A stretch of 64,000 bases of DNA from Grammothele lineata. Its lineage: Eukaryota; Basidiomycota; Agaricomycetes; Polyporales; Polyporaceae. The notes beneath the pieces were generated by a model that was given only the letters and a program-made list of their open reading frames with translations, did not search any database and was not told where the DNA came from. Shown piece after piece: positions 3,880 to 40,985 of the stretch (the first letter of the stretch is position 1; each line of letters opens with the position of its first letter). Location of the stretch: NCBI GenBank assembly GCA_002150815.3, contig NDFF03000065.1:62001-126000 (forward strand), given 5' to 3'. A program made the translations under genes and the position numbers.

Positions 3880-4117
3880 ATGTTGAACCCGCGGAACACA
3901 CAATCCTCGACGAAGCTCGCGTGTTACGCGGCAGGGGCCATTCTTGTCGTGATGGTGTTTGCTTTCGGCGGAATGTGGCCCTTTGGCCGAAACACAGCAC
4001 AAAAATCACCATGTAGGTGCTGTTTGACTTGTGACGGTAGTGGCCACATGCTGATAAACGCCTCCGGTCACCTTAGCATTGCCTGTGGTACCACCGAGCG
4101 AGAACTCCTGGGTCTGA
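3880..4117 (+). CDS. ENxWV small peptide 1 (57 aa), Cys-less variant
   Basis: Two exons, 3880-4012 and 4077-4117, separated by a 64-nt GT-AG intron (donor GTAGGT, branch-like GCTGATAAAC). Together they encode 57 aa. The N-terminus (MLNPRNTQSSTKLACYAAGA then ILVVMVFAFGGMW) is a hydrophobic signal peptide or signal anchor. The C-terminus is KSPSLPVVPPSENSWV. The second exon is 41 nt, the same as in peptides 2 and 3, and the intron is phase 1 as in all five. It differs from the others: there is no dibasic [KR]R before the intron (only GRNTAQKS), the motif Cys is Ser, and there is no AA|P signal end. It may be a diverged or decaying member. I do not recognise the family. Expression would have to be shown. 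Confidence 0.55.
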
Positions 4118-4982
4118 GTTTCGACCGAAGATGCAGATGTTTGACAGTGCAGCACGTGCCCTCCTATTGTGCGTGCTCTCAGATTATCTTTTAACTTTAG
4201 CTTCCTTAACGTTGACAAAGCACTATATGTTTAGACGGGTTCTTGTGCCCGGTTGAAATGGGCGACAAAGGATTGTGTGCGAATGGATCAGCACCGTGAC
4301 AGCGATCTAAAACGTTCATTAGCATGACGTGTATTCTTTGTCATGAATGCAGCCTACAATGATGTCCCAACAATCCAGGAGTACTGAAGTGCGCCCGATG
4401 CGCTTAGTGCAACTTCTCAAAAGCATCAGCACCGCATAAAGACCAGCGCCCGCTCGGGGCGGCCGTGGACTCGCACGCTGGTGCCGCAGTTCTGAACGCC
4501 CTGTGCGGATAACGACAAGCGGTGAGAGGCCCCCACCTACCCGAATCAACGCGCAGAGTGGGGAGGCTTCTGAAATGATGTGAGCAACGTCGTATCGCGC
4601 GAAGTCCTGTCCGAGGGTGGGTCATATGTCAGGCGCGCGCAGAGGCACTTACCCATGCCTGTTGGCAGAGAACGGCTTGGCGCCATGTCATGTCGCCGCA
4701 CTGTACGCGCGCGACACGCAGGCCACGCGCTGCATGCCTCGGGCCCGGAACAGCCTTCCGCGGGCGTTGCCCAAAGACGAGCGAGTCTCGCAGCCCAGTA
4801 GATGGCCTTTGTCCAAAAATAGAACGGGTATCTGGCGGGTATCCCTCGCCCGCTGCTCAGTCTGAGGATAAGAGCCGCACGGAATGCGCGACGATGGAGA
4901 TCATGAAACATTATATAACTTCTACTACACGTCAGCGCATCGTCGGCTTTCCGTACACCCACCTGTTACATATCGCCTAGTG
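4118..4982. other. Spacer between peptide genes 1 and 2
   Basis: 865 bp. Open frames on both strands overlap one another without domain, signal peptide or splice support. No repeat of the ENxWV motif is present. Confidence 0.4.
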
Positions 4983-5181
4983 ATGCAGCTTTCTATCCTA
5001 GCTTCGAAGTTCACCTGGACCATTGGTCTCGTCTTTGTGATCCTCGCGAGTACGAGTGGCGCGGCTCCCGCAGAGCGCAGAGGCAAGTGTTGCTTCCTCG
5101 GACACGAGCATGGTACTTACGCGTCTTTTTGCGCATCCAGCCGAGGACGTATCAGCCCCCAGCGAGAACATCTGGGTCTGA
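4983..5181 (+). CDS. ENxWV small peptide 2 (46 aa), spliced by a GC-AG intron
   Basis: Exons 4983-5082 and 5141-5181. The 58-nt intron begins GCAAGT, the standard consensus for a GC-AG donor, has a CTTAC branch site and ends CCAG. No GT donor gives an intron of normal size that also reaches the conserved tail. The GC-AG join puts the intron in phase 1 directly after the dibasic pair, exactly as in peptides 3-5. The product starts MQLSILASKFTWTIG, has a hydrophobic core (LVFVILASTSGAA) ending in the AA|P signal-cleavage pattern, then PAERR and the tail AEDVSAPSENIWV. There are no cysteines after the signal peptide. The predicted secreted form is 18 aa, and 13 aa after cleavage at RR. The family is unknown to me. 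The role as a secreted peptide is inferred from this architecture. Confidence 0.65.
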
Positions 5182-6167
5182 GTATCCGGCACCCTAGATT
5201 GTAATCCCAGCCGAGCAAGGTTCGTGGGCGTGCGCTCTCTGTCTGCGTGAGATAATTGACGTAGTTGTATCAGAAGCTAGTCTAGCCTTGAACATAAGTT
5301 GATAACACTGGACTTCCTTGATGATGGAGGAGGCTTCATATAGTCATGTCATCGATCCTCTCTTATATCCGCCATCAACAAGATGCTGTATCATGATGAA
5401 AGTAGATCTCTTACCTCCCTGATGTATTGATCCCAGATATTGTGCCATGCAATACTGTTACGCTTTGTAGGAGAGAGCTGCGCCGAGTTCTAAGATAGAC
5501 AGTTGGCCATAAAGTGGTCCATCAAGAATGAGAGGTAGCCTGACTACGAGTCGGTGATAAGAGGCCACTCACCAGCAACTTGAAGTAGTGTCAAAAACAG
5601 TACTTACTATTAGTACGTGATCAAGATCGTCGTACGGACCCAACCAAGTATCTTATGACACGTGCTATCACGGTAGTGTTGCCGCGAACTTAACTCTGAA
5701 CGATCTTGGAGACGAGAATAACAGGCTGAGCCGTTACACCCGAAGGTGGCGGCGCACCAATAGAACAGAGCGGAGTATGAAAGCAGGCCACGCAGCCGAG
5801 CGGCGCTTGAAATGGAGGTCGCATTCAACCGGGCTACGCCACGCAAACTCCACCTTCACGAAGATCGCTGAGCTTCCTTCAGGTGCGTCTCTATCTGATA
5901 GAACGGGCATTTGGATCTACATAATGGATACACAACTCGGATAGATCTAACTTCTGAATACATAGCAGAAACCCACAAAGAACTCGAAGTCCTTCCTGCA
6001 ACAAGTACCAAATAAGAGCATTACAGTTTGCATTATGGCCAACCGTGCTAAAACGAATACTTCAGCAAAATGAGCTAACATTCGAGCGACGAAACTGCGC
6101 CAACATACCCGAACCCTCTGGCCAACTGCTCCTCCCGCCCACGCATGTTCGAGCTCATGTCGATGTC
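5182..6167. other. Spacer between peptide genes 2 and 3
   Basis: About 1 kb, somewhat AT-richer than the gene blocks (5200-5600). Only short unrelated open frames. It holds the 3' sides of peptide genes 2 (+) and 3 (-), which converge. Confidence 0.4.
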
Positions 6168-6385
6168 TCATACCCAGCAGTTCTCGGTAGGTGGCGTAAT
6201 GACATCGTCTAAGCAGGTATCGTCAGCGTTTCATCTGGATATTGCTCTCCAAGGCATATGCACTAACCGCCTCGACGGGAGACGCAGCCGTCGACGTCTG
6301 GAGATCCGACGGGCGCAGCGATTGCGCCCGAAACGATAGCGGCAACGACGCCAGCGAAAACAAAGTAGAGCCTCGAGAGCTGCAT
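6168..6385 (-). CDS. ENxWV small peptide 3 (52 aa)
   Basis: Minus-strand exons 6385-6268 and 6208-6168, with a 59-nt GT-AG intron (donor GTTAGT, branch GCTGAC, acceptor CTTAG). The 52-aa product begins MQLSRLYFVFAGVVAAIV and ends its signal peptide at SGAIAA|P. After PVGSPDVDGCVSRR, the intron splits the codon two positions past the RR, and the tail is GDDVITPPTENCWV followed by stop. There is one Cys in the propeptide and one in the conserved motif, so a disulfide within the secreted form is possible. RR is a Kex2-type cleavage site, which would release a 14-residue C-terminal peptide. The gene is convergent with peptide 2 and in the same orientation as peptides 4 and 5. Confidence 0.75.
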
Positions 6386-7369
6386 GTTGCTGTGACAGCC
6401 GTAGGACTCTACCGAGCCGCGCTGAGAACTACGTGGAAGAGAGGATGAGAGGAAGGTAAGGTGAGCGTACTGCGGGAGTCTGCGGCGCGCGGCGCGCGCG
6501 ATGACCCTTTATCTTCAGATCTCAACCCACAGATCAAGACCTAGAGGACTGCCTTCGCGCTCACGAAACCCACCGCCCACGGCTTCTGCGCCTCACCGAA
6601 GCGATTCCTGCGCACCGTCGCTTTTGGTGAGAGGGTACGCTGGGCTGTGTCGTTATCTCAGCACGAATATCTCCACCTGGCGCTGCGGCAGGTTGTGAAC
6701 GGCGGCGGGGTGATGCGTAGCTTCGTAGCCCGCGGCCTTCCGCAGGGCTCACTTATTCCGTGTTTGGTCCACAATGCCGTGATGACCGTTTCCGTCGAGG
6801 TGGGCGCAGTCAACTGATTCCTGCATATCGCCATCACTGCAATCCGAGCGCCGCGGGTTCTTTTTCGCGCGTCAAGTTCACCTCCGTGTCCGCATTACTC
6901 ATTCCTGGAGTGCTTTCGCAAGCATGCCATATATGTAGATGCGCCTGTCTTAGACTGCTCTGCGCTGACTGTGCGTCATAGTTTGCGTCGAAAAGGCTAC
7001 AGGACTCTGGCAAGACCTTATCGCCCGGATGGTCATTGGCCTCGTGGCAGTGTGGGGGGCAGTCCTGGGCAGTCACGAGGGATTCTGTAGGAACTCGGGC
7101 TCGAGTGTCTCGCACATAGCCATCTTTACTGCTGCTTGAAGCTTGGCTACGCTGAGATGGTGGCGTCTCCTTTACAGTACATACTCTAGGCCATCCTACT
7201 CATCTGCATCATTGATCACCGCGCTGTGTTTATTCTATACACGCTCCGAAACTCAACGCGCTCAGGGTCTTATGTCTAGATCAAAAGCATACCGTCCCTT
7301 CAGTGAAGCGGAAGGCGGCTTGAACATCGATAAACGCACTCGTTTCATAATCATACGGGGTATACTAGT
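6386..7369. other. Upstream region of peptide gene 3
   Basis: About 1 kb between peptide genes 3 and 4 (both minus strand). No frame shows a domain, signal peptide plus intron, or a further ENxWV motif. It would contain the promoter of peptide 3. Confidence 0.4.
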
Positions 7370-7572
7370 TCAAACCCAGCAATTCTCGGTAGGGGGAAGA
7401 GGTGAAGCTACGCTCTGCGTCAGCTTTGATGAACTAGCTGGAGGTACACTCTGCATGGAGGCTTACCGTCGCGGCGCTGGGGCTCGCAGGAAACTGGCTC
7501 TGCCATTGGAGCCGCGACCACGGTGGCAGCGAAGAGGCTAGCGAAAAGGAAGACGAGTTTTGAAGCCTGCAT
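7370..7572 (-). CDS. ENxWV small peptide 4 (47 aa)
   Basis: Minus-strand exons 7572-7467 and 7407-7370, with a 59-nt GT-AG intron (donor GTAAGC, branch GCTGAC). The product is 47 aa: signal peptide MQASKLVFLFASLFAATVVAA, then PMAEPVSCEPQRR, then DASPLPPTENCWV and stop. I chose the ATG at 7572 because it lines up with the MQ starts of peptides 2, 3 and 5; an in-frame ATG 33 nt upstream would add a polar extension. The second exon is 38 nt, as in peptide 5, and the tails of 4 and 5 differ at only two positions (DASPLPPT against DAFPLPPS). The gene sits at one end of a duplicated block that also contains peptide 5. One propeptide Cys and one motif Cys are present. Confidence 0.8.
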
Positions 7573-8650
7573 TTTCTGTGCGTTGTTAGAAAAAGCTGGA
7601 ATCAAGTTTGACTCAGGAAGTCAGTAAATGGTGTGTGATGTATGGGCGTACACGAACAGGAGTAGGCGCAGGGACTGCGAGTGTCAGAGACGTTGGCCTA
7701 AGATATGGGGCTCATCCTCCAGCCTTTTCAACTGGTGGCCCGGCGTTCAGGCTGACACTCGACCTGCCACAATGCAGACAGCTAGGATGGGCGAGCATTC
7801 CAAAATAGAACAAGAAGGGACGCAGCCCGAGTACAAGTCAGGTCTCGTTAGATCCTGTGGAGAAATTCGTTAACCTCCGCTGGCGCATTTGGGATGATGG
7901 ACATGTCATCTGCCGAACGTCAGCCTGAGTCTTGAGAGGAGCGTGGTGTCTGTGAAGAGGTTCTGATGTTAGATTCTCGAGCCGGAACGCTCAGGTCCGC
8001 ACGTTACGTACTTTCCTTGTTCACAGGCTGCTCGAAGGCGTTCACGTCCGAAAAGGACTGGTTCTCGGGAACTCCTCCGCCTCATCGAGTTCCGAAGTTC
8101 AAGGTCCCAGCGTTTTGTATGCTTCTTTGTTCGCTGTACCTTGGTGGCGAGACTTCGATACATCAACCACAGGACTTGAGACGCCGCCATCACGTCCTAT
8201 CACTCTAAGAGCAGATACAGAGGGCGCACTGAATCCCCGGGCGATGATGTTACCAGGCGCACAATTATTCGGAGGGCAGTGCATACCCGGCTTAAATGTC
8301 CCGGTAACTGCGCTGAACGAGTTTTAATGTGATCGTTCCAACAGGCGTGGCCAAATAGAGCAGATTGGCTTCCTTCGCTAAATGACGGATCTCGAACATC
8401 CTCCCCGGGCTGGCCGAGTGGCGGCTCTCACGGACTGACCAGCAGCTGAACGGGGGAAGACCATTGCGGGATTAGGCTGCACTGGTGTCCGCATGTGACT
8501 GCGTGCTCTCAGAAAGGTTTACGTACGTGTTTTCCGGATATTCGGTTAATGTTTCTGAAGACGCATTCGATGAGCTACTTGCCACGGGCGCGAATATGCT
8601 GCACTGCCTCCTGAGACGCAGTACGACCGGAATAGGAAGGCCACATGGGC
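7370..8650. repeat. Segmental duplication, copy 1 (peptide 4 plus ~1.1 kb upstream)
   Basis: This block aligns by eye, in the same orientation and order, with 9641-10870 at an offset of about 2.27 kb shrinking to about 2.2 kb. Matching stretches include CCTTTTCAACTG at ~7721 and ~9994, a CCGAAAAGGAC-x-GGTTCTCG segment at ~8051 and ~10298, and TTTACGTAC near 8518 and 10729. Open frames are not conserved between copies outside the peptide gene, so the shared upstream part behaves as non-coding or decayed sequence. Edges are approximate. Confidence 0.7.
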
Positions 8651-8711
8651 GTGAACCGCGTGGCGAGTAATCAAGCTGTACGTGTGTCTCGGGGATCCGA
8701 GTATGAGCTAA

Positions 8712-8945
8712 CACGGCAGGGATTCCCGATTTTTGGGACGAAGAAAAATGGCTGAGCAACCGCGGCTCGAGGCAACATTTTCGGCGATATGCCTAAAACA
8801 AGGGAAATATCGCGGAAAACGAAACCATTTAGTCGCCTTTTCATCGATTTTTCTGGTACACGTGACTTGTTGAAGAAAAGGCTTCCTCGAGCCACCATTG
8901 TCCAGCGATTTTTCTTTGTCCGAAAAACCGGTAATCCCCGCCGTG
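8712..8945. mobile_element. MITE of ~234 bp with imperfect TIRs and a TAA target duplication
   Basis: The left end (CACGGCAGGGATTCCCGATT) and the inverted right end (CACGGCGGGGATTACCGGTT) match over about 42 bp with around seven differences, and further inverted similarity (GGCTCGAGG on both sides) extends inward, making a fold-back element. TAA flanks both ends (8709-8711 and 8946-8948), as for Harbinger/PIF-type elements. There is no transposase, so it would be non-autonomous. It lies just beyond the edge of duplication copy 1 and is absent at the matching place near 10.87 kb. Confidence 0.75.
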
Positions 8946-8948
8946 TAA

Positions 8949-9640
8949 AGATCTGATCTGCTCGTGCTCGGTAGCCCATCGGCACCGTATCACGGTCGAA
9001 GGACCACTGCTTGTCGCACGAGTTTGCTCGAGAATTTGACTCGGAGGGACTCGGAGAACGTCACAGATTCGAAGACGAGAAATAACGAATCAAACAGGCC
9101 GCCCGCCAACGAATACTGACGTAGGGGTCGTAGATGTGCGTGTTGGTTGCTCGTCAAGAAGAACCGAAGCGTATCGTAAGTCGTCAGCAAGCGAGTCCGC
9201 GATAAGTGAGTGACGCCGGTAAGTAACGCTGGAACGGGCCGGGCCACCCGGGCCACTACGCGCCGAAAAACGCACATATAGTAGTCTTAACTAATGGGAG
9301 GAGCTGAAGGTATACGCTGTTACTTTATGGCTGGCAAAAACCACGTAGAGCGGCTCCTGTCAATACCGCAAGCCAGTCAATCGACCATGTCAATATGTAA
9401 TACACTCCAGAGTAGTGACGTCCTATCCTCCGAGTACATGCCCAGAGCCACCCTCAGGCTATTGATTCTCAGTATTCAACACTACGTTGCGTTCATCCCA
9501 TACATATTCCAAAACGCCGTGCGCTTGTAGTCTCGCGTATAGACCAAACACCTACAACTCCTTCAGCACGCTTGAAGGCATGGGGTGCACCCCGCGCACC
9601 CAGATACGCACATTCTGGCAGTCACATGAAATCCCTTGTC
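8949..9640. other. Spacer between MITE and peptide gene 5
   Basis: About 690 bp. Minus-strand open frames near 9000-9277 show no domain and appear to be GC-driven. Nothing further supported. Confidence 0.35.
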
Positions 9641-9868
9641 TCAAACCCAGCAGTTCTCGCTCGGAGGGAGGGGAAAAGCTAATTCAATGTTAGCCTTCAC
9701 GAATGGATTCAATGTACAGCGTGCACAAAAATGCTCACCATCGCGCTTCGAAGGCCCTGAGTCGGAAACAGAGCCGCAACTTGGGTCTGTCAACAATGTG
9801 CCCGGGGCTGCACTTACGGTAGCAGCAAGGAGACTGCAGAGAAGAAAGGCGAACTTGGGAACCTGCAT
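9641..9868 (-). CDS. ENxWV small peptide 5 (55 aa)
   Basis: Minus-strand exons 9868-9739 and 9678-9641, with a 60-nt GT-AG intron (donor GTGAGC, branch GCTAAC, acceptor ATTAG). The product is 55 aa: signal peptide MQVPKFAFLLCSLLAATVSAA, propeptide PGTLLTDPSCGSVSDSGPSKR, and tail DAFPLPPSENCWV with stop. KR-D at the exon junction matches RR-D of peptide 4. One propeptide Cys and one motif Cys. An unspliced reading is also open and gives a longer protein with the same last residues, but the splice signals and the match to peptide 4 favour the intron. This is the clearest member of the family together with peptide 4. Confidence 0.8.
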   Translation of the reverse strand: MQVPKFAFLLCSLLAATVSAAPGTLLTDPSCGSVSDSGPSKRDGEHFCARCTLNPFVKANIELAFPLPPSENCWV

Positions 9869-12955: not shown

Positions 12956-14235
12956 ATGGCAGACCAGAACGCGATCTTCCAGAACTCGTTCTATGTCGGG
13001 AACATGTTCGTCGCTATGCTTTACGGTACGCCGCTCTCTCGCTCGCACGCCGCACACGCCGAGACATAGTGCTGACCTGCTTTCTGCGTTACGGATGCAC
13101 ACTTGTACTGACGCACACAGGCGTTGAACTGATGCTCTACGGCGCTGGAGTGTGGCTCATTCTCGAAGATCGCAAGCGCAAGAAGAACCCCCGCGCGAAC
13201 CGCACCTTCCTCCTCATCAGTACTCTCCTTATCGCGATGAACACCATTTTTTTCGCCACCCAAGCTTTCTTCGGCGAAGACATGTGGATTATCAACGAGG
13301 GCTTTCCTGGGGGCTCTGCCGTCTGGTTCGTGGAGAACGCGGCGATTTGGTATCAGACGTTTGGCACGACTGCGTGCGTCATCCAGAATGCGGTCAGCGA
13401 TGGATTCCAGGTACATACGCCCGACGAGGCATCATTGTTAGCATGTATGGGTAAGCATCAGAGACTAACGAAAACCCTTGGCGACTGTTAGATTTACCGC
13501 ACATATATCGTCTGGGGCGCATCCAAGCGGCTCATTGCATTTCCCAGCTTCATCTGGCTTGGTACCTTTGGTGCGTCTGCTATCTTCCAGTTCCCTTTAA
13601 GAGTCATTTCTTTACTCACTACATTCGACTATAGCCCTCGGCATACTCACTTTGATCACTTCGGGCGCGCCCAATGCAGACTTCTTCGCTGGCTTCGCAG
13701 AGAACGTCGCGCTCGCATACTCGGCGGCAGGCATCTCGTTGAACGTCATCTGCTCCATCCTCATCACGGCACGTATTTTGTGGACGTCGCGCCGGATGGA
13801 AGCGACGCTGGGCCGCGAAGTATCGCGCACGTATACGAGCGCTGCGGCAATCATCGTCGAGAGCATGCTGCCGTACTCAGTCTTCGGTTTCGTCTACATC
13901 ATCACGCTGGGCGTGAACAGCCCTACGTCGGTTTTCTTCCTCTCGCTTTACGTCATGTTCACAGTACGTGCCTCCCATCGGCTCATCCGAACTAGACACA
14001 CACTGACACTTGCTGCACACAGGTGATCTCGCCCCAGATGATCATCGTGCGGGTCCTCCTTGGACGTGGCATCGCGGCAAAGACCACATTAGCGACGACC
14101 GCCCTGCCGAATTTCGCAGCTAACACCACTTCTCTCGGCACGGCGAATACGGAAGGCACAGCGGTCAACCTCCGTAACATGTCCAAGACGTCCGTTGAGC
14201 ACTCGAAGGACTACAGCTTCTCCACAGACGTGTAA
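12956..14235 (+). CDS. Seven-transmembrane protein A, uncharacterised Agaricomycete family (326 aa)
   Basis: Five exons: 12956-13025, 13121-13410, 13492-13570, 13635-13963 and 14023-14235, all GT-AG and in phase, giving 326 aa. It starts MADQNAIFQNSFYVGNMF, then has a run of hydrophobic segments consistent with seven helices: GVELMLYGAGVWLIL, FLLISTLLIAMNTIFFATQ, a conserved loop FGEDMWIINEGFPGG, WYQTFGTTACVIQNAVSD, IYRTYIVWG, then two further pairs ending at the conserved P-Q-M-I-I-V-R-V-L. The cytoplasmic tail is Thr/Ala/Asn-rich. It shares intron positions with copies B, C and D. The family is widespread and multi-copy in mushrooms, has no proven function, and is not the STE3 pheromone-receptor family. 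The likely location is the plasma membrane. Confidence 0.85.
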
Positions 14236-14483: not shown

Positions 14484-16626
14484 TCAACCTACAACGCCGT
14501 CAGTACACGCTTTCCTAATAGAGTCCCAGACAGCAGAGCTCGGTATGATCGTCCGCCCGATTACCCTAGCGCCTCCATTTCCGTCCCGCACGCCGATCCA
14601 AAACCCCTGCATAAGCCAACATGTACCGCCAAATACCAACAAGTTACCCGCGTCTGTCTCCCGCCTCGTCGCTGAGTGTATAAGCCCCAACAGCGCACCG
14701 TGAGGAGTCAAGACATGCACAATGTCCACCACACGGAGAACTGCATCCGCGGTCGGCAGCGACGTGCCGCAGATCAGGCAGACAAGGAAACGCCGCAGCT
14801 CGTGAGCGAAAGTACTATCGGGGATGTTGGGTACTGCATCAAAGGAAATAATGCCGGTGGTGCCAAGCTCCAACGTAGCGATTTCATCAGGACTAAGGAA
14901 GCGCGACACGGCGATTGCATTGAACTCGTGTGCGAAATGTTGATGGAGGAGCCCGGCAGGATCGGTTTTGTCTAGAACGCGGTCTCTTTTGTTCATGCCA
15001 ATGCATGGACCCGAAGAAGAAATGAGCGCGATGTGCCGGAAGATGTCTGCTGTGGCCTCCAAGCCCTCTTTGATCTTGACCAGACCAGGAGCAGTTGCGT
15101 CGACGTCTCCGACGGAAATGGTATTGGCTACGGTGAAATACTTTTCACTACCCGTGATGTTCTCGCTGTCTCCTTGGAGTACAGTGAACGTGTCGTAAGC
15201 CTCTCCGATATTAGAAGGCTCCCTCATAAGCCACGGGAGGGTACGACCATTTCCCGACTCCATCATGCCGTTGGGTACTTTCGGCGTAACCAGTAAGATT
15301 TTTCGAACCTCAGGCTGGCTAATGGCGTCACGAAGGAGGCGCGGAAAGATATCGGCAGTCTTGTCCCGCGACCAGGAGGGGCCTGATATCCCTGAATGTC
15401 TGGAAAGACTGCCAAGACGTAGTCCCGAGACTTCGTTGTCTCGCGTGCGCTCCTCCATGCCTGGAGGATAGGGTTGTAACCCGGGGAAGGTCCCGGTTCA
15501 CAATTATATGCTAGTACGTTGAAACGACGCCGGTAGACAACATCGACATAGAGGGAGAAGAGGGAGCCTTCGGCGTCGGAGGCCTTGATGCCGTGGTAGG
15601 CGAGCTTATCGAGGAGGAATGTTTCGGCATACGTCCGTTTTGCTAACAGCGCCCCGTGCGCTACCCACACGGCCCGCGCATTTCCTTGCGTATGCAGGCA
15701 GGGGACAGGATTGAGGATGATAAAGTCCATGACGCACGCATATAACCCCTCCTGTCTGGTCCACAGCCGCTCGAACCAAGGGTCCGCGAAGAGGAAGTGT
15801 GGGCACCGGCGCCCGTGGGCAAACTCCTCCACCCCAAATGCTTCCTGATCTATGGATCCACTCTCAAAGACTCGCATAGTAGCAGCATTCCAATCTTGAC
15901 ACACTGGACTTTCGACAAGGACTTTAACGCATCGGCTGGACTTGTATATGGAGGGAATGGCCATGAGCTGTTCGGCGATGCTGATGGTCGCGGTCTCCGT
16001 CTGGTCGAGGCAGAAGAGATCCATCCAGAACCAATTGAAACCACACACATCGGGACGCTTGAGGATCGACAGTATGTCCTTCTTCCCAGGACTGAGGGAT
16101 ACCTCGCCTGCAGAACATGACGGCAGGTCAGCGTACCATAGACTGGCTCTCACAGCGGCATTGTGATATGCGTACCTTCAATTCCGTCTACGATCGTCTT
16201 TTGAATGGTTTCCGGGGACCCCCACACGTGCGATATGGCGATATAGTCGTCTGTGGTTTTTGCACTGTCTTTGTACTTGAGGTAGAGACATCCATTGGCG
16301 CGCTCGTCAACCTGGACGAGATAGATGTCCATGACTGCAGGCTTGACTTGGGTCTACTGGTGCACACGCACAGCGTTGATCGGTGAAACGTCTAAGGTTT
16401 GAGAACCTTTCCTCTCACGGCTGGCCTGATCGGTCAACGCCTCAATGCTTAACTCAGCCCGGCGCTCAATCACGGCACCGAATGTGAAAGAGACCGAACA
16501 ACAGAGCCTACGAACATCCAGGAGTAGTCGATTGGTATCCATGATGGTACATAGCAGGCGGAGGCTAAGTCGTACACTGGTAGTACAGAATCGTAAGTCG
16601 TCTCGTATCACAGGGTCAGCAACCAT
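14484..16626 (-). pseudogene. HET-domain protein, disrupted by a stop codon and a frameshift
   Basis: The HET domain (PF06985 type, heterokaryon incompatibility) is clear: YIAISHVWGSPETI in the first exon (16332-16176), then after a 67-nt intron GFNWFWMDLFCLDQ, IPSIYKSSRCVKVLV and PWFERLWTRQE from 16107 down. Two lesions stand out. An upstream frame ending SPINAVRVHQ (16626-16357) is in the same frame as MDIYLVQVDE but is cut by TAG at 16354-16356, which reads as a nonsense change in otherwise continuous coding. At about 15374-15383 the frame shifts by one base in an AGGAGGGG tract: DYVLAVFPDIQGYQAP precedes it, and RDKTADIFPRLLRDAISQ continues in another frame to the stop at 14484. No intron can bridge so short a distance. 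The C-terminal region, about 300 residues, is intact. Alternatively, the ATG at 16332 is the true start and the shift is a sequencing error. Confidence 0.7.
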
Positions 16627-16668: not shown

Positions 16669-18005
16669 TCAAACGTCCGCGAGGTCTCGCCCTTTCCCGT
16701 GCCCGTCGGTACTCGATAGATCGTAGATTTTCACGTCCCCACTACCCGACGAGCGCGGTAGAGGGACCTCTGGGGGTGGAGAGATCCTTTGAAGACCGAT
16801 CGCGGGACCGTCCGTACCCACTTCGAGGTCGCCTTCGGTGACGGTTGCTCGAGGGAACTGGAGTCGCGTGCCGCGGTCGCCGTACACGGCGGTTGAGTGC
16901 GTGAACCTCATAGTCGTGGCGGCTGCGTCGTTCGACCAACCGCGGCCCATGATGACGCGGAGGATGATCATCTGTGGTGAAAGGCACTACGCGCGCGAAG
17001 TGGGCTCCATGAGCAACGGATTCGATGACGAAAGGAAGGTACGAAACGGACACGTACGTTGAACATTGCGTATAGGGACAGGAAGAGAATCGATAGCGGG
17101 CTGTTCGCGCCGAGCGTCACAACATACGCGACACCGAAGAGCGTGTACGGCAGCATAGACTCGACGATGACTGACGCCGCGCTCGTGTACACGCTCGAGA
17201 CCTCGCTCCCGAGCACGCGCCGCATATCACGGCTAGCTAGGAGAATCCGCACGCAGATTAGGGTGGTGCAGGCGACGTTGAGGCCGAGACCGACGGAGGA
17301 GTAGGAGAGGGCGATGCGCGATGCAGTGCCCGCGAAGAAGCCATCGGAGTTGGGCAGAGAGGAGAAGTAGAGAGTGGAGACGCCGAGCGCTGAGAAGCGA
17401 ACGTGCAAGCGGTTGGGGGAGGCTTACTTGAACGAAAGGGGAAGCGACGACGCACCAAGACTGCCGACGTAGAGTATACATGGCACAACAATAACGTGCC
17501 AGTTTGCCCAGACGACATATGTTCGATAGATCTCGAGAGCGCGTCACGATTGACGGATGTGCTGGGTATGACGAGGGTACTCACCAGGAATGCATCGCTG
17601 ACCAAATTCATGAGAACCCAAGAAGTACTCCCAAAAAGCTGATACCAGACTTCCGCGTGGTCAGCGAAGTACTGCGCGGTCCCGCCCGGATATCCCTCAT
17701 TGATGATCCACATCTCCTCGCCGAAGTAGTTTTGCGTGATGACGTATATGGTGATCATGCAGAGAAGGAATGTGCTGAGGGAGAGGAATACTTTGTCATT
17801 GCGGGTGAATGGGCGCCCTTTGAGCTTGCGACCGTCTAAGATTAGTTGAATTGTCCTAAAGTAAAGCACGAGCTCCACGCCTGTGAGGACGCCGTCAACA
17901 TAGCTTTGCGACTAGCTAAGGATGTTGTAGCTCACCGTAGAGCAAGGCATTGAAGTTATTCCCTATGTACCATGCGTTCTGAAAGACCGCGTTCCAGCTG
18001 GCCAT
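16669..18005 (-). CDS. Seven-transmembrane protein B (363 aa)
   Basis: Minus-strand exons 18005-17936, 17880-17585, 17531-17456, 17389-17058 and 16986-16669 give 363 aa with every phase preserved. It starts MASWNAVFQNAWYIGNNFNA. Family landmarks include GVELVLYFRTIQLIL, FGEEMWIINEGYPGG, WYQLFGSTSWVLMNL, the IESMLPYTLFG-like helix (VESMLPYTLFGVAYVVTL), and NCLSPQMIILRVIMGRGW before an approximately 90-residue cytoplasmic tail. The tail ends near VKIYDLSSTDGHGKG, close to VKIYDLSKAQD in copy C. B and C are each other's closest relatives in the window and lie head-to-head about 2 kb apart. Function is unknown; a receptor-like role is inference from topology only. Confidence 0.85.
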
Positions 18006-19958: not shown

Positions 19959-21263
19959 ATGCCTACCTGGAACTACGTCTTCCAGAACGCTTGGTATGTT
20001 GGGAACAACTTCAACGCTATCCTCTATGGTACGTCGTATGTTTCCGTATTCCGTGTCATCGCGTAATCACGTTCACTCGCAGGCGTTGAGCTAGTACTCT
20101 ATTTTCAAACCCTGAATCTCATTTTGAGCGGGCGCAAGCGTCGCAGCCTCACCCGTAGTGATAAGACATTTCTCTTCCTGAGCACGTTCCTGCTCTGCAT
20201 GATTACGATCTACTTCATCACGCAAAATTTCTTTGGTGAAGAGATGTGGATAATCAACGAAGGGTTTCCTGGAGGCACAGCGCAGTACTACACCGATTAC
20301 GCGGCGGTGTGGTATCAGCTCCTAGGTAGCACATCGTGGGTAACCATGAATCTCGTCAGTGACGCTTTCATGGTACGTTTGCGCTTCACGATGCTTGCGC
20401 GGCTTCCCTGATCTTCCTCCTGTGACTAGATTTATCGTACATACATCGTTTGGTCCGATTGGCGAGCAGTCGTCATCCCATCGGCCTTTTATGTTGGCAG
20501 TCTCGGTAAGTTCGTGCCTTCAGGAGACATCAGTCGTATACTGAATGCTCTATCTCTCGTAGGTTTGGGTGTTTCCACTCTCTATTTCTCGAGCAGACCC
20601 GACGCCAACGGCTTTTTCTCTGGCACCTCCTCTCATATCGCACTATCTTACTCCTCCGTCGGCCTCGGCCTTAATGTCACCTGTACCACCCTGATCTGCG
20701 CACGCATCCTCATCGCGAGCCGTAGGACGCGCAAGGCTCTTGGTGCTGATGCGGTTAGCGTCTATAGCGGCGCTGCAGCGGTCATCATTGAGTCGATGCT
20801 TCCCTACACCCTGTTCGGGGTCGCGTACGTCGCGACTTTGGGCGCCAACAGTCCCCTGTCGATCCTCTTCCTGTCGCTGTATGCAATGTTCAACGTGCGT
20901 ATCCCGCTTTCTCTCAGTTTTCAATAGAGCGAGCTCACCACGCTGAGACAGTGCCTCTCCCCTCAAATGATCATTCTCCGCGTCATCATGGGCAGAGACT
21001 GGACGACGGAAGCATGTAGTGTTACCGTGAAGTTCAGGCACACCTCCGCAGCGTACGCCGATACCCGCCATCGTATCCCGCGCAACACGGTGGGTGGTAC
21101 CGTAGACGTTGAGTCTGCGGATGTCGCGATCGGCCTGCGGAGGATACCCCGCGTCGACGGAGACCTCCAATCGGCGGAACATCCAGGAGGGGATGTGAAG
21201 ATATATGACCTCTCCAAGGCTCAGGATTTTCCAGGAAGAAAGGCGCCTCCGTTAGATGTATGA
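19959..21263 (+). CDS. Seven-transmembrane protein C (359 aa)
   Basis: Exons 19959-20028, 20083-20372, 20430-20505, 20563-20894 and 20952-21263 total 1,080 nt, that is 359 aa plus stop. It starts MPTWNYVFQNAWYVGNNF. Conserved features are GVELVLYFQTLNLIL, FGEEMWIINEGFPGG, WYQLLGSTSWVTMNLVSDAF, IYRTYIVWSDW, SYSSVGLGLNVTCTTLICAR, IIESMLPYTLFGVAYVATLG and CLSPQMIILRVIMGRDW. The C-terminal tail (about 100 residues) is polar and ends GRKAPPLDV. The same five-exon structure as copies A, B and D shows that they come from one ancestor by duplication of genomic DNA, not retroposition. The product is likely in the plasma membrane, and its ligand is unknown. Confidence 0.87.
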
Positions 21264-21765: not shown

Positions 21766-21959
21766 CATCAGCACCTTACCGCAGCACCCTGAGTGTCTGC
21801 GGAGGGCCTACGGTAGGCGTGCTTAGCCGCATTGAGCCATCGATATAAGTTGACGCTAGGTGAGAGCCACCCCTTCACTGTCTCCTGCCCTCTCTTCAAT
21901 CTCTAATAACTCCCAGTCTTGCCAGCCTATTCTACATCTCTCGTTTCGATCTAGGTGAA

Positions 21960-24900
21960 ATGAGCCAACAACGTGGAGCTTCTCGAGGTCGCGGTCCAGG
22001 CCGAGGACCCAGAGGTGCCTCTCCCTCGACGCGAGGCCGGGGTAGTCCAGCCCCTTCGACGACCGGAACAGATAGGAGCGGAGGGGCTGGCGGCGGCCCT
22101 AGAGGCGGTCGCCCCCCTCGCGGTGCGAGTCCCGGCTCCTCTGGTTATGGAGGGCAGTCGCCATCCCGCGGTGGTGGTGGCGGTCGCGGCGGCGGCGGCG
22201 GAGGCTTCCGCGGCGGCCCTCCCAGCAGCGGCCCCGCGGGAGTCTTCGCAGCAGGCCAGCCTCTCACGCGACAGCCCCAGATGAACGATCAGGAGCTGGA
22301 TGGGCTCGTGCAGGGGTTTCGCCGTCTTCGGGTCCAGCCAGAGATGCCACTCCGTCCTGGCTGGGGCACGCTCGGTCAGCCGGGCGTGGTCCGAACGAAC
22401 TTCTTTGCGGTGCGGATGCTGGCGAACAAGACGTACTATGCGTACGAGATCGCTATCTCTCCGAAGGCCCAGGTCAAGGGTTTGGATCGGCGTGCTCGCA
22501 TCATGGAACTTGTCGAGCAGAGCCCTCAGTTTGCCCCTTTCGTTCACCATGTTGCGCACGATCGCAGCCAACGTCTCATCTCGACTGAGCAGCTCCCTCA
22601 GCCGTTCGAGCTTCCTATCATCTACCTGGAGGAGGATCAGCGAGACGACCCGAATGGGCTCAGGTTTACCGTTGAGTTAAAGAAGCTCCAGGAGGAGCTC
22701 AACACCTCTACACTGGAACGGTTAGTCTGATGTTCACCCTACCAGTCACTACCCTTACTGATTATTGCGCAGTTACATGAGCGGAAATCCTGAACATCGA
22801 AACATCGACACGCAGCCCATTGTTTCCGCTCTCAACCTCGTCTTCCAGCAATACGCGTCCAGAAACGGTGTTCGTGTGGGGAGAAACAAATACTTCTTCC
22901 GTTCCGCATTGCCGCCGCAGCCCCTCTCGTTGGGAGTGGAAGCCTATCGAGGGTTCTTCATGTCCATTCGTCCGATGTACAAACAGTTGATGGTTAACAT
23001 CAACGTGTGCATGACGGCTTTCTATGCACCAGGGAATCTCGCCACGGCCATGGACGCATTCCAGCAGCAGACAGGGGGCGCGATGCCCACTTTCTTCACC
23101 GAAAGGCTCAAGATATCCACCAAGCACCTCGGGTATACGAGGAAACGAACGATCCAGAAGGTGATGACGGGCAAGACGGCACGTAATGAGCGGTTCAACT
23201 GTGCTGAGCTGGGAGGAATGGTGACCGTCGAGCAGTTCTTCAAAAGGAGTGAGTCATCGCTACATCACGGGAGTCACTTCATTGCTAATCGGTATTCGCA
23301 AGAGTATAACATCACCCTGCGCCGTGCCGCCGACCTGCCCCTCATCAACGTCAGCGCCAACCGCGACAAGCCCAACTACCTCCCCGCCGAGCTTTGTGAG
23401 ATCGTCCCCGGTCAGGCCTATCACGGCCTCCACGGCAGGCTCAGTCCCGAGCAGACCGCCGCGATGATCAAGATCGCGTGCAACCCGCCCCCCATGAACG
23501 GCGACGCCATCGTCGGCCAAGGCTTCGACCACCTCGGCCTCCGCCCGAACACCCCTGGCTCCGCGCTCGGCGCGTTCGGCCTCTCCGTCACCGCGCAGAT
23601 GACCGCAGTCCCGGAGCGCATACTCCCTGCGCCGCGCATCGAGTACCGGCGCGGGAACCCGCCGCAGGTGCGCGACGCCGGCTGGAACATCCTCGAGGTC
23701 GCGTTCCAGACGGGTGGGAACATGCACAACCGCTGGGCGGTCCTTCTTGTCCGGGAGGGCCGCCGGGATGAGTTCGAGGGTCCGGGGGACCCCGCGCTCC
23801 GCCAGTTCCTCCAGACCTTCCTTCGCAAGTGCGCCGCGGCGGGGATCGCAGGTACAGACATCAACGTTGCGCCGCGAATCTTGGAGGTACGCCTGCCGCG
23901 CCCGAGCCAGGACAACGCGGCGCGCGGGGGCGCCCTCGAGGCCATCCGGACCACGCTGCGCGACGGCCTGGACAGGAACAACAAGCCGAGCTTCGTGCTC
24001 GTCCTCCTCTCCGGCGTCGACAAGTTCATCTACCCCGGCATCAAGAAGCTCGCGGACATCACTATGGGCCTGCACACGGTGCACATGCTGCTCAACAAGG
24101 CGCGCGACAACCGGCCGAACAGGCAGGATCAGTACTTCTCGAACGTGGTGCTGAAGGTGAACGCGAAGCTGGGTGGGGTGAACCACCTCCTCGATGGGAA
24201 CTCGATGCGCTGGCTTCGCGAGAAGAAGACGATGGTTATGGGCATCGACGTCACGCATCCCGGCCCGCGAAGCATCCCCGGTACCCCGAGTATTGCTGCG
24301 GTCGTCGCGAGCATCGACGACAATTTCGCGCAGTACCCGGCGAGCTTGATGTTGCAAAAGGCGGACTGGAACAAGGAGAGCAAGGAGGTACGTTAGTCCT
24401 TTCATGTGTCCGTGCGCACGCCGACCATATCTTCTCTATGCAGATGGTCGAAGGTTTGAAGCAGGCGACGATCGAGCGCCTCCAGTTGTACGGGAAGAAG
24501 AACGGGAAGCTCCCCGACCGCATTATCGTCTATCGCGACGGCGTGTCAGAGGTAAGCCTCGCGCCACCCTCAACCCGCCTCGCGCCACAGCTCACGACGC
24601 GCTACCCCTTAGGGCCAATACGAGCAAGTGCTCACCATCGAGCTCAAGCTCATCCAAGACGCCTTCAAGCAGATCTCGCCCAAGACCCCCTACAAGCCCA
24701 CGCTCACCATCATCGTCTGCGGCAAGCGTCACCACGCGCGCTTCTGGCCCGCCGACAGCGCTGGGGCGACGCGCAACGGGAACACCAAGCCCGGCACGGT
24801 CGTCGACAAGGGCGTCACGGACGTGTACAACTTCGACTTCTACCTCCAGGCACACAACGGGCTGCAGGGCCACGTGCGCGCGACGCACTATACGGTCGTG

Positions 24901-25203
24901 TACGACGAGAACGGGTTGAGCGCGGACACGGTGCAGCAGGGCACGCATACTGCGTCGTATTTGTATGCGCGCGCGACTAAGGCCGTGAGTCTTGTGCCGC
25001 CTGCGTACTATGCGGACGTTGCGGCCGAGCGTGGGCGGGCGTACCTTGGCGCGCTGCTCGACGCGGGGGACGACGCGCGGAGCAGCGTGACGGGGGGAAC
25101 GAGGGACCGGGAGGCGGAGAAGGAGCAGGTGTTCCAGAGCGCGGTGAGGATGTGGGGGAGGGGCGTGCATGCCGACTTGCGCGACTCCATGTTCTACATC
25201 TGA
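21960..25203 (+). CDS. Argonaute 1 (1,006 aa), RNA-silencing slicer
   Basis: Exons 21960-22720, 22773-23248, 23303-24387, 24444-24551 and 24613-25203 give 1,006 aa. Residues 1 to about 95 are an Arg/Gly-rich tail (many RGG/RGR and GGG). The N domain follows (VRTNFFAVRMLANKTYYAYE), then PAZ around 300-440 (TAFYAPGNLA, FFKRKYNITL, then PNYLPAELCEIVPGQAY), then MID and PIWI. PIWI catalytic positions are kept: Asp near 727 in MGIDVTHPGP, Asp near 806 in IVYRDGVSE, His near 902 in THYTVVYDENG, with a candidate glutamate finger near ESKEMVEG. The end is LRDSMFYI, as in eukaryotic Argonautes. It should bind small RNAs and cleave complementary targets in quelling-type silencing. Its paralogue lies at 45.8-49.0 kb in the opposite orientation. 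Confidence 0.95.
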
Positions 25204-25677: not shown

Positions 25678-27859
25678 TCAAAGCTCCTTTTTCGCCGCAG
25701 AGCCGACAGCAGCGGCCGCAGCGGCCTTGTAGCCCTCGAGCGCGCGGAGACGCTCCGTGAGCGTCGGGTGCGAGTGGTGGTAAGCCGAATACCTAGGTGA
25801 TGGGGCGCATATAGTCAGCGAAACGCACGAAAACGGGGTATACAGGAGAACGAGAGGTGGGGAAGACAGAAACGTGGATGAACATGTCACCAGATAAGGG
25901 ACAGGGGGAGGGAGGGAACGTATGCAAAAAAACCAAAAGAAAAAACGAGGAAGTAGACACTCACAGCCAATCCACCCAAACCGTCGACAAATTCTCCACG
26001 TGGAGCGCGATGAGCGCCTTCCCGAGCCGCTCGCCCATGTCCGCCATGTCCTTCGTGTCCTCCACGCCGACGCCGGCCCGTACGAGCGTGGCGGGGAGCT
26101 CGCACGCGAACTGGTCCGCCTCGTATTCGAACTTGCGCGAGACGGCGTTGATGGCCATGCCCACGACGGACTCCATGGGGGTGAGGAGCATCTGTAGAAG
26201 GTGGGATGTGGGTAAGCGTTGGAATAATGGGAGCAGAAAACGGGCGGGGGAGGGTCCGATCGGCTGACGACGCATACAACCAGCCAGCGGCGCTGAATAC
26301 CTGGGTATTCGTATCCGTCGCTCGTCCCGTGAGCGGTCGCCACAGCTGCTATAGGTCTATCCTCATCATCCAGTACTCCAGACAGGACTCGTTCGCCGTC
26401 CACCCACTCTCCAACCGATCACGCCCGCGCCCCCACCCTTGGACCAAAAGAGGCCGTACGCACCTGGTACAACAAGAAAGCAATGATCGTCGGCGGCTTC
26501 GCCGCCACGCTCGGCGGGAAGTCGAACGCGCGGAGGAGCGGCGGGGCGTGCAGGAAGGCGGGGAAGAGCGCGAGGATGGTGAAGATGTGCAGCTGCGAGA
26601 CGGAGAGCAGCTTCGTGGGGTGCATGTAGTACCAGTGGCCGAGCTCGTGGGCTACATCGGAGGCGTCAGATGGAGGTGATAAAAGGGGAAGAGGGAGAGG
26701 GGAGGGGGGAAGGGGGAAGGGGACGCACCGAGGACGGCCTCGACTTCTTCGGGCTTTGCTTGCTTGATGAGCGTGTCGAAGAGGACGATGTGCTTGCTCT
26801 GTGTATGCGCATATGGCTGTCAGAGGATCTCGCAGGGATTAGACACTATCCGCACGCACCCAAGGAAGACCAAAGAAGTACGCGTTCGAGTGCGAGCTCC
26901 GCTTCGACCCATCAATTTCGTATAGATGCTTGAGCGGGAACTTGAGCTTGCCCGCGAGCGCCTCGATGCGCGTCCTAAGATCGCCCGCGGGGAGCGGGGC
27001 GAGCTTGTTGAACAGAGGCTGAATGACGGTCGGATAGAGGACGACCATGCTCATCTGGAAGACGAGGAGGAAGGCCATGAGCCAGGGGACGAAGCGGTCG
27101 CCGGCCCACTGGAAGATGGAGAGGAAGGCGGCGAGGAAGGGCGCGCCGATGGCGAAGCCGACGAGCCAGGACTTGACGAGGTCGGAGACGAAGAGGGAAG
27201 CGGTGGACTTGTTGAAGCCGTGGGCCTCCTCGAGGACGAAGGTGTAGTAGACGGAGAGAGGGAGGGAGGGGAGAGAGGAGATGAAGAAGAGGAGGAAGGC
27301 AAATGCGATGGACTGGACGATCTGCGGGACGGGAGTGAGCGTTGTCCTTGCCCCTTCCATAGACACATAGATGCAGAGAAAAGGATACATACCTCATACT
27401 CAGGCCCATAGCCCAACTTGCCGACTATCCAGCCGCCCGCAGACCAACACCAAGCGACGAGGCCAAAATGGACGAAGAGGGAGTCGGCGACCTGCTTGAT
27501 GAGGCCGGAGACAAGGGAGAACTTGGCCTTGTCCTTGCCGTACGCCTGCGACTTTTTGAACGTCTCGGGCTTAAAGTGCGCGGCGAGAACGGGCGGGGGC
27601 TGGTCCTTGGAGTAGAGCGGGAATTGACGCAGCCTGAGAAACGGACGAGACGGACACGGAGGTGTCAGACAGGCACGTCCACACGACGTCCTACATGCTA
27701 CGGCATAAAGGGGGAGAAGGGGGCGTACAGGAGGTAGGACTCCCAGAGGCAGACGCCCCAGGAAGAGATCTGGAGGTAGAGCTTCCAGTCAAAGGGCTCG
27801 GTGGAGACCCACGCGAGCTGGGACTGGACGGCGTCGAGGCCTGCGTTGAGGTAGTCCAT
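25678..27859 (-). CDS. STE24: CAAX prenyl protease Ste24 (M48 zinc metalloprotease, 477 aa)
   Basis: Seven minus-strand exons (27859-27729, 27633-27393, 27321-26860, 26798-26729, 26651-26464, 26191-25965 and 25792-25678) give 477 aa, the usual size for this family. The N-terminal domain shows FKPETFKKSQAYGKDKAKFS. Several membrane helices follow. The zinc site HELGH is at the start of exon 5 (AHELGHWYYMHPTKL), and the third ligand Glu lies in FEYEADQFACEL. The C-terminus AAKKEL fits a KKxx ER-retrieval signal. Ste24 removes the aaX residues from prenylated CaaX proteins and makes a second cut in a-factor-type pheromones. It acts in the ER and nuclear membrane. Ordinary housekeeping gene. It starts 587 bp from the divergent carrier gene. 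Confidence 0.93.
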
Positions 27860-37655: not shown

Positions 37656-38334
37656 TCAATGCCGGACTTCGCGCCACTCCTCCCAGTTCTCCTCCATCGT
37701 TTCATACACTGCCTCCCAATCTCTGCATCGCCGTTCACCCCCAGCCCTCTCAGCACTCGCGTTCCTCCACACCGCGTCCGGTCTCTCCAGCGTCGTATCC
37801 GCAGAGCACAAGGCAACCTGCCGCAACCCATTTAGACACCTCTCGACGTGCGCTCGCTCGCGCGTATCCCCCGCAGCCGTCAGCGGGTCCTCTCTCCCGG
37901 CCAAGGTTGTCGCGAGGATGCGTGTGCAGTGTAGCTGGTACGCAAAGCCGGTAGTGAAGAAGCGGTGGGTAGGGCCGAGGCGGACGTTGCCATCCCCAGC
38001 CGTGTTCAAGGCCCGCCATTCGAGGCCTGCCTCAGGGGACTTCGGGGCGTAGCGCACGGACTCTTCGAACACGAGTCCTACGGCTTTGCGGGAGTGGGGA
38101 ACGGGAAGGTTGGGTGGATAGTCGTCTTCGATGAAGCCTGACGGGTGCATTTGTGAGTGGTTCTTCATGAGGAGCTGGGCTGTACGCACTGTAGTAGGAT
38201 AGCGGCGGTGGTCTTTGGACTGCGGTGCGCTTCGTCGCTCGTACGAATGCTACGTCTGCAACGATATTTGCAATTCCGAGGACGAGCACGAGAATCCACG
38301 CGAGAGCGTGTGTCGGTGTGAGGAAGTGTAGCAT
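37656..38334 (-). CDS. UstYa-like (DUF3328) protein with altered first HxxHC motif (208 aa)
   Basis: Minus-strand exons 38334-38190 and 38137-37656, with a 52-nt GT-AG intron, give 208 aa. A short N-terminal region and one helix (ALAWILVLVLGIANIVADVA) make a type II membrane protein. Then come YYSFIEDDYPPNLPVP, GLVFEESVRYAPKSPEAGLE, and the two metal-motif regions. The first reads YQLHC where the family has HxxHC; the second reads HVERC, followed by LNGLRQVALCSADTTLE. It ends with the typical CRDWEAVYETMEENWEEW. UstYa-family oxidases modify peptides in ustiloxin/phomopsin-type RiPP pathways, and many paralogues have unknown roles. With the first His replaced by Tyr and the second motif H-x-x-R-C, activity may differ or be lost. 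Confidence 0.8.
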
Positions 38335-39480: not shown

Positions 39481-40833
39481 ATGTCCGACCCGTTGGCCGT
39501 CTTCCAAAATGCGTTCTACATCGGCAATAACTTCAACGCGATCCTTTATGGTCAGTGTGTCTTCGTATGTGGAATATGGCGCTTCTAACGCGAACATCTG
39601 GTGAACCTAGGCATCGAGCTCGTACTGTACTTTATGACAGTCCGCCTCATGCTCTCGCGTAAGCGCAAACACGCACCATCGGACAAGTGGTTCCTGCTCT
39701 TTTCGACCGCTCTCCTCTGCCTCAACACCGTCTTCGTCGCCACCGAAGCCGTGTTCGGCGAGGAGATGTGGATCGTCAACGCGAATTACCCCGGCGGCAT
39801 GGACGCGTACCTCAACGACTTCGCGGCGGTGTGGTACCAGACATTCGGCACAGCTGCGAGCATCGTGCTTAACCTGCTCGCGGACGGCCTCATGGTACGT
39901 TCCCAACTCCTTCCTACATTCTCTGGCCCGCACCCGCGTTGTGGCGTCCCGGTGGTTCCGCGCTCGAGATTGTGGTCTGAAAGACGCCGATGGCTGATCG
40001 GATCGATTTTCCATTTTGTTTTGTGCAGATCTACCGCGTTTGGGTTGTCTGGGACGACGTGCGCGTCATCATGTTCCCAATTGTCATTTACCTTGCGTCC
40101 CTATGTACGTGCACTCCTCCGTAGGTCGTGCGCGCCCCGATGCTAACGGCCAGCCGCCTTTTTGCTCCACCCCACACGCCACCGTGCACACACCCCGTAG
40201 GCCTGGGCGTATCGCAGCTGATTGAGTCTGGCAAGCCGCAGTCAAACTACTTCGTCGGGCTAGCCAAGAACCTCGGCATCGGCTACACCTCCTGCATCAT
40301 CGCGCTCAACATCATCACCACCGCGCTCGTCTCGGGCCGCATCTACGCCGCCGGGCGGACCTTCACGGAAAGCGTCGGCCGCGAAGCCGGGCGCGCGTAC
40401 ACGGGCGCGGCCGCGATCATGGTCGAGAGTTCCGCGCTCTCGACGCTCACGGGCATCGCGTACCTCGTCACGTTCGCGCTCGACAGCCAGCTCGAGATCT
40501 TCTTCCTCTCGATATACGTCATGGCGGTGGTGCGTCCCTCTCTTTTCGTCTCACTTCCCCCGTAGTGCGCTGATGACATTCCTGCACTTGCGTGCGCGCA
40601 CGTGTACATAGTGCATCGCGCCGCAGCTGATCGTGCTCCGCGTGATGAGCGGGCGCGCCTGGACACGCGACAAGTCATCGATGGTCGGCAGCAAGCTCGA
40701 GTTCACCGCGCGGTCGACGACGCACGTCGGCACGGACATCGAAGACGAGAAGGCGGGCGCGCGTAGGATGAACACGGACATCACCGGCACACTCTCAAAT
40801 ACGTCGAGCGAGCGCGCCGGGGAGATAGTGTGA
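39481..40833 (+). CDS. Seven-transmembrane protein D (326 aa)
   Basis: Exons 39481-39550, 39611-39894, 40029-40104, 40201-40529 and 40612-40833 total 981 nt (326 aa). It starts MSDPLAVFQNAFYIGNNFNA. Landmarks are GIELVLYFMTVRLMLSRKRK, FGEEMWIVNANYPGG, WYQTFGTAASIVLNLLADGL, IYRVWVVWDD, TSCIIALNIITTALVSGR, TGAAAIMVESSALSTLTG and CIAPQLIVLRVMSGRAW, with a short polar tail. The loop [GE][ED]MWI[IV]N..[FY]PGG is the best-conserved stretch in all four copies. D is more diverged from B and C than they are from each other and sits 18 kb away, between the second and third F-box/WD40 genes. Function unknown. Confidence 0.85.
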
Positions 40834-40985
40834 AGGGCTTTCGTATGTGCTCAGCCTGAAAACTCACTTCTAGGTTCCGATGTCACGTTCCTCTTGTACG
40901 CTTTTGGCGAGCCATTATACCATGTAAACGGTTTAACACGACAGAGAGGTAGCTAACCACACGTTCCATGTAAGGTGATGTTTAA

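Follow-up and report, generated by a model that had tools for sequence, protein, structure and literature searches.

Short spliced precursors of secreted peptides accompany UstYa and 7TM genes in Grammothele lineata: candidate basidiomycete counterparts of dikaritins

A 64,000-nucleotide stretch of the genome of the polypore Grammothele lineata (the window; positions 62001-126000 of contig NDFF03000065.1, labelled C57) carries five short genes, g1-g5 in window order, for peptide precursors that share the tail P-[ST]-E-N-x-W-V directly at the stop codon. Their sequences support the conclusion that these are real, spliced genes for secreted-peptide precursors, four of the five having a Kex2-like site, and the gene models are well supported. 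We consider it probable that they encode short ribosomal precursors with a single core each, which are cut by kexin, oxidised by UstYa enzymes and secreted; they would form a basidiomycete counterpart of the dikaritins, with a product plausibly read by adjacent seven-transmembrane (7TM) proteins of predicted Ste2-like fold. The C57 family is one of several, and other UstYa clusters of the genome hold analogous precursors with different tails. The cluster context suggests a peptide product that has not been recorded before, perhaps a signal. The genome searched comprised 41.8 Mb; the other contigs with UstYa genes are labelled C139, C60, C41, C89, C129, C72 and C246.

Five spliced genes share a C-terminal tail

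The preliminary description of this DNA had proposed five genes on both strands, each with one phase-1 intron of 58-64 nt and a second exon of 38 or 41 nt. Models rebuilt from the sequence translate as claimed and reproduce this layout throughout, with introns of 64, 58, 59, 59 and 60 nt in g1 to g5 (Table 1). Donor, branch-type and acceptor sequences are present at the common phase in all five introns (g3 by eye), the g2 intron being of the GC-AG type (GCAAGT...CAG). Splicing is the only route to the shared tail in g1-g4; the g5 intron is stop-free with a length that is a multiple of three, and there the tail can be reached spliced or unspliced.

A signal peptide and a dibasic Kex2-type site had been attributed to four of the five precursors, and this was correct. 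Signal peptides were called by a rule devised for this analysis, combining hydropathy and cleavage site (g3 was assessed by eye), and RR or KR lies upstream of the C-terminal core in g2-g5. The exception is g1, which has no dibasic site; it passed the signal-peptide rule in the strict scan described below, yet its hydrophobic segment is internal and no convincing cleavage site follows. It is therefore a divergent member. Each precursor carries one core, not the multiple repeats of dikaritin precursors. All five cores contain Trp and no Tyr, and a cysteine stands third from the end in three of the tails. The flanks of g4 and g5 are ~65% identical in DNA, and the pair are tandem duplicates.

Written as a degenerate DNA pattern, P-[ST]-E-N-x-W-V-stop occurs at exactly five sites in the genome, the tails of g1-g5, all inside one 6 kb stretch; the reversed control has none in the same 41.8 Mb. 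The looser pattern E-N-x-W-V-[stop or W] gave nine matches, the five genes and four others, and its control gave four. At each of these four additional sites, the strict scan of the surrounding 3 kb found no precursor. The proportion of synonymous differences (pS) exceeded that of nonsynonymous differences (pN) in 7/7 pairs of spliced frames. These pairs, three from g3-g5, three from C60 genes and one from C139, are not fully independent of one another. Between g4 and g5, pS was 0.64 and pN 0.22 overall, and 0.75 versus 0.04 over the last ten codons, where the C139 pair is an exception (0 synonymous and 2 replacement changes). Short as the genes are, a reading of them as chance open frames is hardly credible, given five near-identical tails within 6 kb and none elsewhere in the genome, constraint on the spliced frames, and splice signals at equal phase in all five introns.

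The preliminary description knew of no named family with this signature, and the searches agree. Neither g4 nor g5, the two members scanned, matched a Pfam family, and the C57 peptide family had no homologue at E<=10 among 5.8 billion proteins, polypore proteins included (41 candidates shared words). The C60 peptide family had three matches in the protein search, all metagenome proteins. Two of these are unspliced readings of like genes; the third, P0116, is chimera-like, its first half apparently resembling a bacterial pyruvate dehydrogenase.

Precursors of the same layout in other UstYa clusters

We scanned blindly for loci combining a signal peptide, a phase-1 intron whose donor, branch and acceptor sequences satisfy set rules, and a short exon 2. 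This strict scan returned nine loci in 244 kb, all within three UstYa clusters: five on C57 (g1, g2, g4, g5 and C57:47211), two on C60, and two on C139, where one locus could begin at either of two starts. There were none in the other 122 kb, which consisted of the window's remaining 42 kb and stretches of C41, C89, C129, C72 and C246; this sequence also contains UstYa genes, and its window part has one UstYa and one 7TM gene. Another 52 kb of sequence returned no locus, and on Markov-simulated sequence the scan gave 0.2 loci per 62 kb versus the 5 observed. A relaxed scan produced 33 rows, from which C139:145630, C60:83644 and C41:522802 were accepted as further precursors and C72:2150 as a weak candidate, the remaining rows being taken as background. 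g3 is absent from both scans because its donor, GTTAGT, falls outside the donor rule.

Core tails are unrelated between clusters, reading NC[AV]SE[IA][DA][FY] on C60, DCF on C139 and QWYE on C41. Every genome match of the C60 peptide (3/3) and of the C139 peptide (2/2) lies inside its own UstYa cluster, and 0.5-1.2 kb separate precursor and UstYa match at C57:47211, C41:522802, C60:86537 and C60:99543. The first of these, MLLSLKLVLVAILTTAAAQPLPQDCEGVKDPSTIAELCSDSGYL on the minus strand, is an additional secreted peptide of the same layout as g1-g5, situated between a 7TM gene (C57:45.2-46.2k) and a UstYa gene (C57:47.8-48.4k) in a compact triple that spans ~3.2 kb. For one C139 gene, a first spliced reading (tail QNFRLCIHWH) was dropped in favour of another phase-1 reading, which ends DCF and in whose frame the copies differ mainly at synonymous sites. 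C139 also contains a large inverted repeat (141000-168000), whose two arms each carry one 7TM, one peptide and one But2-like gene together with two UstYa genes. A search for pairs of C-terminal motifs over the UstYa regions returned mostly noise from duplicated genes.

UstYa, But2-like and 7TM genes recur together

UstYa (PF11807) exon matches number 21 in the genome. Six are on C57, at 37.9k, 41.4k, 48.0k, 54.2k, 58.2k and 99.7k, with the peptide genes at C57:65.9-71.9k; UstYa genes and precursors share a cluster here as they do in dikaritin loci, and most of the UstYa and 7TM context is located left of the window. Both HxxHC motifs are present in 13 of the 21 matches, and 8 are degenerate, with HQLRC, RQLRC or similar. 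Intact and degenerate copies occur in equal numbers on C57 (3+3), C139 (2+2), C60 (2+2) and C89 (1+1), which suggests pairs.

Genes for a But2-like membrane protein lie at C57:49.4k and 55.8k. The name serves as a label, since the Pfam But2 match of 20.8 bits is below the cut-off of 24.2. All six such genes found are within UstYa clusters, on four contigs; in an earlier count, 4/4 loci were in UstYa regions (p 6e-9). An array of about six GNAT-like genes (C57:34000-62200; one of three scanned frames above Pfam cut-offs) is interleaved with the UstYa and 7TM genes, and a GNAT-like query had no match in any of the other UstYa stretches that were read. The genome also has a match to the kexin P domain.

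A single 7TM family has seven genes on C57, four of them inside the window, and such genes lie to either side of the peptide genes (window 12956-14235; C57:59.0-60.0k). With exon matches from two queries grouped into genes by eye, UstYa clusters contain 12 of the 20 family genes found (C57 seven, C139 three, C41 two), and the other eight lie outside. Counted by locus, 3 of ~10 fall in the 0.9% of the genome that is within 20 kb of a UstYa match. An earlier count of 18 genes at 8 loci, 3 of them in UstYa regions, gave a binomial p of 3.8e-5, computed for those 8 loci before the count rose to ~10 loci and 20 genes; tandem genes are not independent, and a per-gene p was therefore set aside. Peptide and 7TM genes stand at 6:7 on C57, 3:3 on C139 and 1:2 on C41. 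C60 has three peptides and no 7TM gene was found in the 30 kb read there, nor was there a convincing peptide gene in 10 kb read at the C13 7TM locus, one of those outside UstYa clusters.

Predicted structures of two 7TM homologues both had Ste2 as best match, with three Ste2 states for the second. According to the accessible text of PMC13308352, Ste2 is the only fungal receptor with a solved structure, and it may therefore come out on top for any fungal receptor family. Foldseek alone against the PDB matched a 7TM structure to class A receptors at weak E values, Ste2 not being among the best 50 listed, and the 7TM profile found no receptor among PDB sequences. In an hmmscan of two 7TM proteins, PF02116 did not appear at any E value up to 1; it was not found in the genome, and control genomes gave no match either. 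Two other assignments were rejected: DUF6534, the family of a 'novel GPCR' (G-protein-coupled receptor; PMC12842992), had no Pfam match in the same two proteins, and the odorant-receptor family PF02949 matched below the cut-off. The closest named relatives are from Epithele, Dichomitus, Polyporus, Ganoderma and Trametes. Those in annotated polypores include BD311DRAFT_866088 and 760383 of Dichomitus squalens. By their locus tags, relatives are apparently clustered in Ganoderma sinense (GSI_03249-03290) and G. adspersum (V8D89_014884-014896).

A proposed pathway

From this arrangement we infer secretion, Kex2 cleavage, UstYa modification and receptor binding. The N-terminal signal would bring each precursor into the secretory pathway, with signal peptidase acting on it. 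Kexin would cut four of the five precursors after RR or KR and release a core of 13-14 residues ending P-[ST]-E-N-x-W-V; in g4 and g5 the residues DA-SP and DA-FP after the cut would fit Ste13 trimming, to LPPTENCWV and LPPSENCWV. UstYa enzymes of the cluster, to which repeated co-location points, would oxidise the core, probably by a side-chain crosslink in its conserved C-terminal part, with Trp or Cys as candidate residues. The modified product would be secreted, and the location and predicted fold of the adjacent Ste2-like 7TM proteins make them plausible readers of it. The preliminary description took the conserved free C-terminus to be the part that a target recognises. This reading, with an unmodified linear peptide as the product, was not established; a setting of UstYa oxidases and Ste2-like 7TM proteins makes side-chain crosslinking likely, and a mass search for unmodified ...ENCWV could therefore miss the product.

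Several observations weigh against a UstYa-modified product of g1-g5. Both HxxHC motifs of the UstYa gene in the window are degenerate (YQLHC and HVERC). Distances from g1-g5 to the nearest UstYa match run from 7.5 kb (g1) to 13.3 kb and are among the largest of the 13 precursors measured. A convincing precursor is present on 4/8 UstYa contigs: strict and relaxed scans yielded none on C89, C129 and C246, and C72 has one weak candidate only. Unlike dikaritins, the locus has five genes with a single core per precursor where those have one gene with repeats, the cores lack Tyr, and g1 has no dibasic site.

Relation to known fungal peptides

Dikaritins (ustiloxin, phomopsin, asperipin, victorin) are Kex2-processed and modified by UstYa/UstYb (PF11807, DUF3328). 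The precursors described here resemble theirs in the signal peptide, the dibasic cut, the co-clustered UstYa genes and the small core, whose end is hydrophobic or aromatic; they differ in having a basidiomycete host and extra But2-like and 7TM genes. Ford 2022 (PMC9233826), in its accessible part, handles dikaritins as ascomycete ribosomally synthesised and post-translationally modified peptides. There is a likeness, too, to fungal Kex2-processed repeat proteins (KEPs), whose peptides are secreted and dibasic-flanked and of which many are clustered with UstYa in Ascomycota. Precursors of the g1-g5 type have no repeats, so repeat-based KEP surveys would miss them. In the accessible text of Umemura 2020 (PMC7329392), 103 of 1680 basidiomycete KEPs are near DUF3328 genes, and the authors consider that cyclisation in Basidiomycota may hardly occur or that the cyclising motif differs. 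The main text of the Agaricomycete KEP paper PMC9769878 contains neither UstY nor DUF3328.

No published description of such precursors was found in the accessible literature on basidiomycete UstYa/DUF3328, mostly from outside subscription journals. Within the same coverage we found no described substrate for Agaricomycete UstYa genes, with 21 exon matches here and 16 genes in Pleurotus (PMC8893723, accessible part). Short, spliced, single-core precursors beside UstYa would explain this substrate gap, and we offer their layout as a search rule: a signal peptide, a phase-1 intron and a short exon 2, near a UstYa gene.

Alternative readings of the locus

A different emphasis, possible though on balance unlikely, makes the C57 peptides primarily alpha-factor-like signals and the seven 7TM genes Ste2-like receptors, in a pheromone/receptor-like locus for self-sensing, hyphal fusion or non-self recognition in which UstYa modification is secondary or absent. 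As in the alpha-factor/Ste2 system (class D GPCR, PF02116), there is a secreted peptide with a Kex2 site, a C-terminal residue encoded at the stop and a receptor-like protein with Ste2 as best structural match; in g4 and g5, dipeptides X-A then X-P follow the Kex2 site, like those of Ste13-trimmed alpha-factor (accessible text of PMC6339444). The flanking 7TM genes, the compact triple on C57, the peptide:7TM ratios on three contigs and a HET gene between two 7TM genes favour the same idea. Unlike alpha-factor/Ste2, the locus has no detectable receptor sequence similarity, PF02116 included, no precursor repeats, and UstYa enzymes. The C60 peptides without a 7TM gene in the stretch read, the eight 7TM genes outside UstYa clusters and the C13 locus also argue against it, as does the top rank that Ste2 would be expected to take with any fungal receptor family (PMC13308352, as above). 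STE3 mating receptors, moreover, are located elsewhere, on C233 and C156. Basidiomycete B mating-type loci (lipidated pheromones, STE3, PF02076) likewise have 50-60 aa peptide genes amid 7TM genes; g1-g5 differ in their x-W-V tail, which has no CaaX box and in which any cysteine occupies the third-last position. A mating-type B locus was ruled out by the missing CaaX box and by the STE3 genes on C233 and C156.

More speculatively, and with considerable doubt on our part, the clusters may form a second, non-lipidated peptide-receptor system of mushrooms beside STE3, with alpha-factor-like precursors that are crosslinked by UstYa and read by receptors of Ste2-like fold in the cluster. If true, Basidiomycota would have a class D peptide receptor, and there would be a UstYa-modified peptide with a dedicated receptor in its own producer. 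The accessible parts of PMC12842992 and PMC13308352 confine Ste2-class receptors to Ascomycota, and these 7TM genes put the stated absence from other fungi to the test. Receptors for basidiomycete Kex2 peptides have been speculated upon (Le Marquer 2019, PMC6339444, accessible text), and the co-clustered 7TM genes are candidate receptor-ligand pairs in a group of mostly orphan receptors.

The peptides could also act in defence or competition only, as toxic or antifungal products, with the 7TM proteins as self-sensors, tolerance factors or unrelated neighbours; we think this unlikely as well. In its favour, known UstYa-dependent peptides are toxins (accessible parts of PMC7329392 and PMC9233826), cores are completely different between clusters within the genome, and 6/16 UstYa genes of Pleurotus show developmental expression, the family being termed putatively defence-related (PMC8893723, in its accessible part). 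It leaves the seven receptor-like genes of the cluster without explanation, and the five copies here have near-identical tails with little diversification of the core. Toxin arrays usually show core diversification.

We judge it improbable that the peptides are unmodified, KEP-like, single-core secreted peptides brought near UstYa and 7TM genes by a hot spot of fast-evolving duplicated genes. C57 does have Argonaute-, WD40- and F-box-like genes that by eye are duplicated, as well as a HET gene, and the UstYa distance of g1-g5 would fit; against this, peptides of this layout recur beside UstYa genes on three additional contigs, and the strict scans found nothing in other sequence.

Other features of the window

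Table 1. Features of the window, with positions counted from its first nucleotide
Feature	Position	Strand	Remarks
g1	exons 3880-4012 and 4077-4117	+	tail VVPPSENSWV; hydrophobic N-terminal segment; no dibasic site
g2	exons 4983-5082 and 5141-5181	+	end RR-AEDVSAPSENIWV; GC-AG intron
g3	exons 6385-6268 and 6208-6168	-	end RR-GDDVITPPTENCWV; donor GTTAGT
g4	exons 7572-7467 and 7407-7370	-	end RR-DASPLPPTENCWV
g5	exons 9868-9739 and 9678-9641	-	end KR-DAFPLPPSENCWV; tandem duplicate of g4
7TM gene	12956..14235	+	five-exon model in single open frame
HET-domain protein gene	15266..16177	-	span of the open frame holding the domain; PF06985 E 5.6e-8; between 7TM genes
7TM gene, same family	16933..17978	-	exon matches; ends not modelled
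7TM gene, same family	19959..21263	+	five-exon model, 359 aa
UstYa family gene	37659..38249	-	PF11807 E 2.9e-14, 53.9 bits vs cut-off 25
7TM gene, same family	39508..40665	+	exon matches; ends not modelled

Rfam had nothing at gathering scores within the window, and NCBIfam gave nothing useful. Translations read by eye point to an inverted pair of Argonaute-like paralogues at 21864-24980 (+) and 45774-49386 (-), ~20 kb apart. WD40-repeat and F-box-like genes alternate in tandem at 31490-43610, apparently as duplicated units (by eye). Between the Argonaute-like genes, ~17 kb from the peptides, lies a gene for a CAAX protease of the Ste24 type (26842-27393, minus strand; PF16491 and PF01435).

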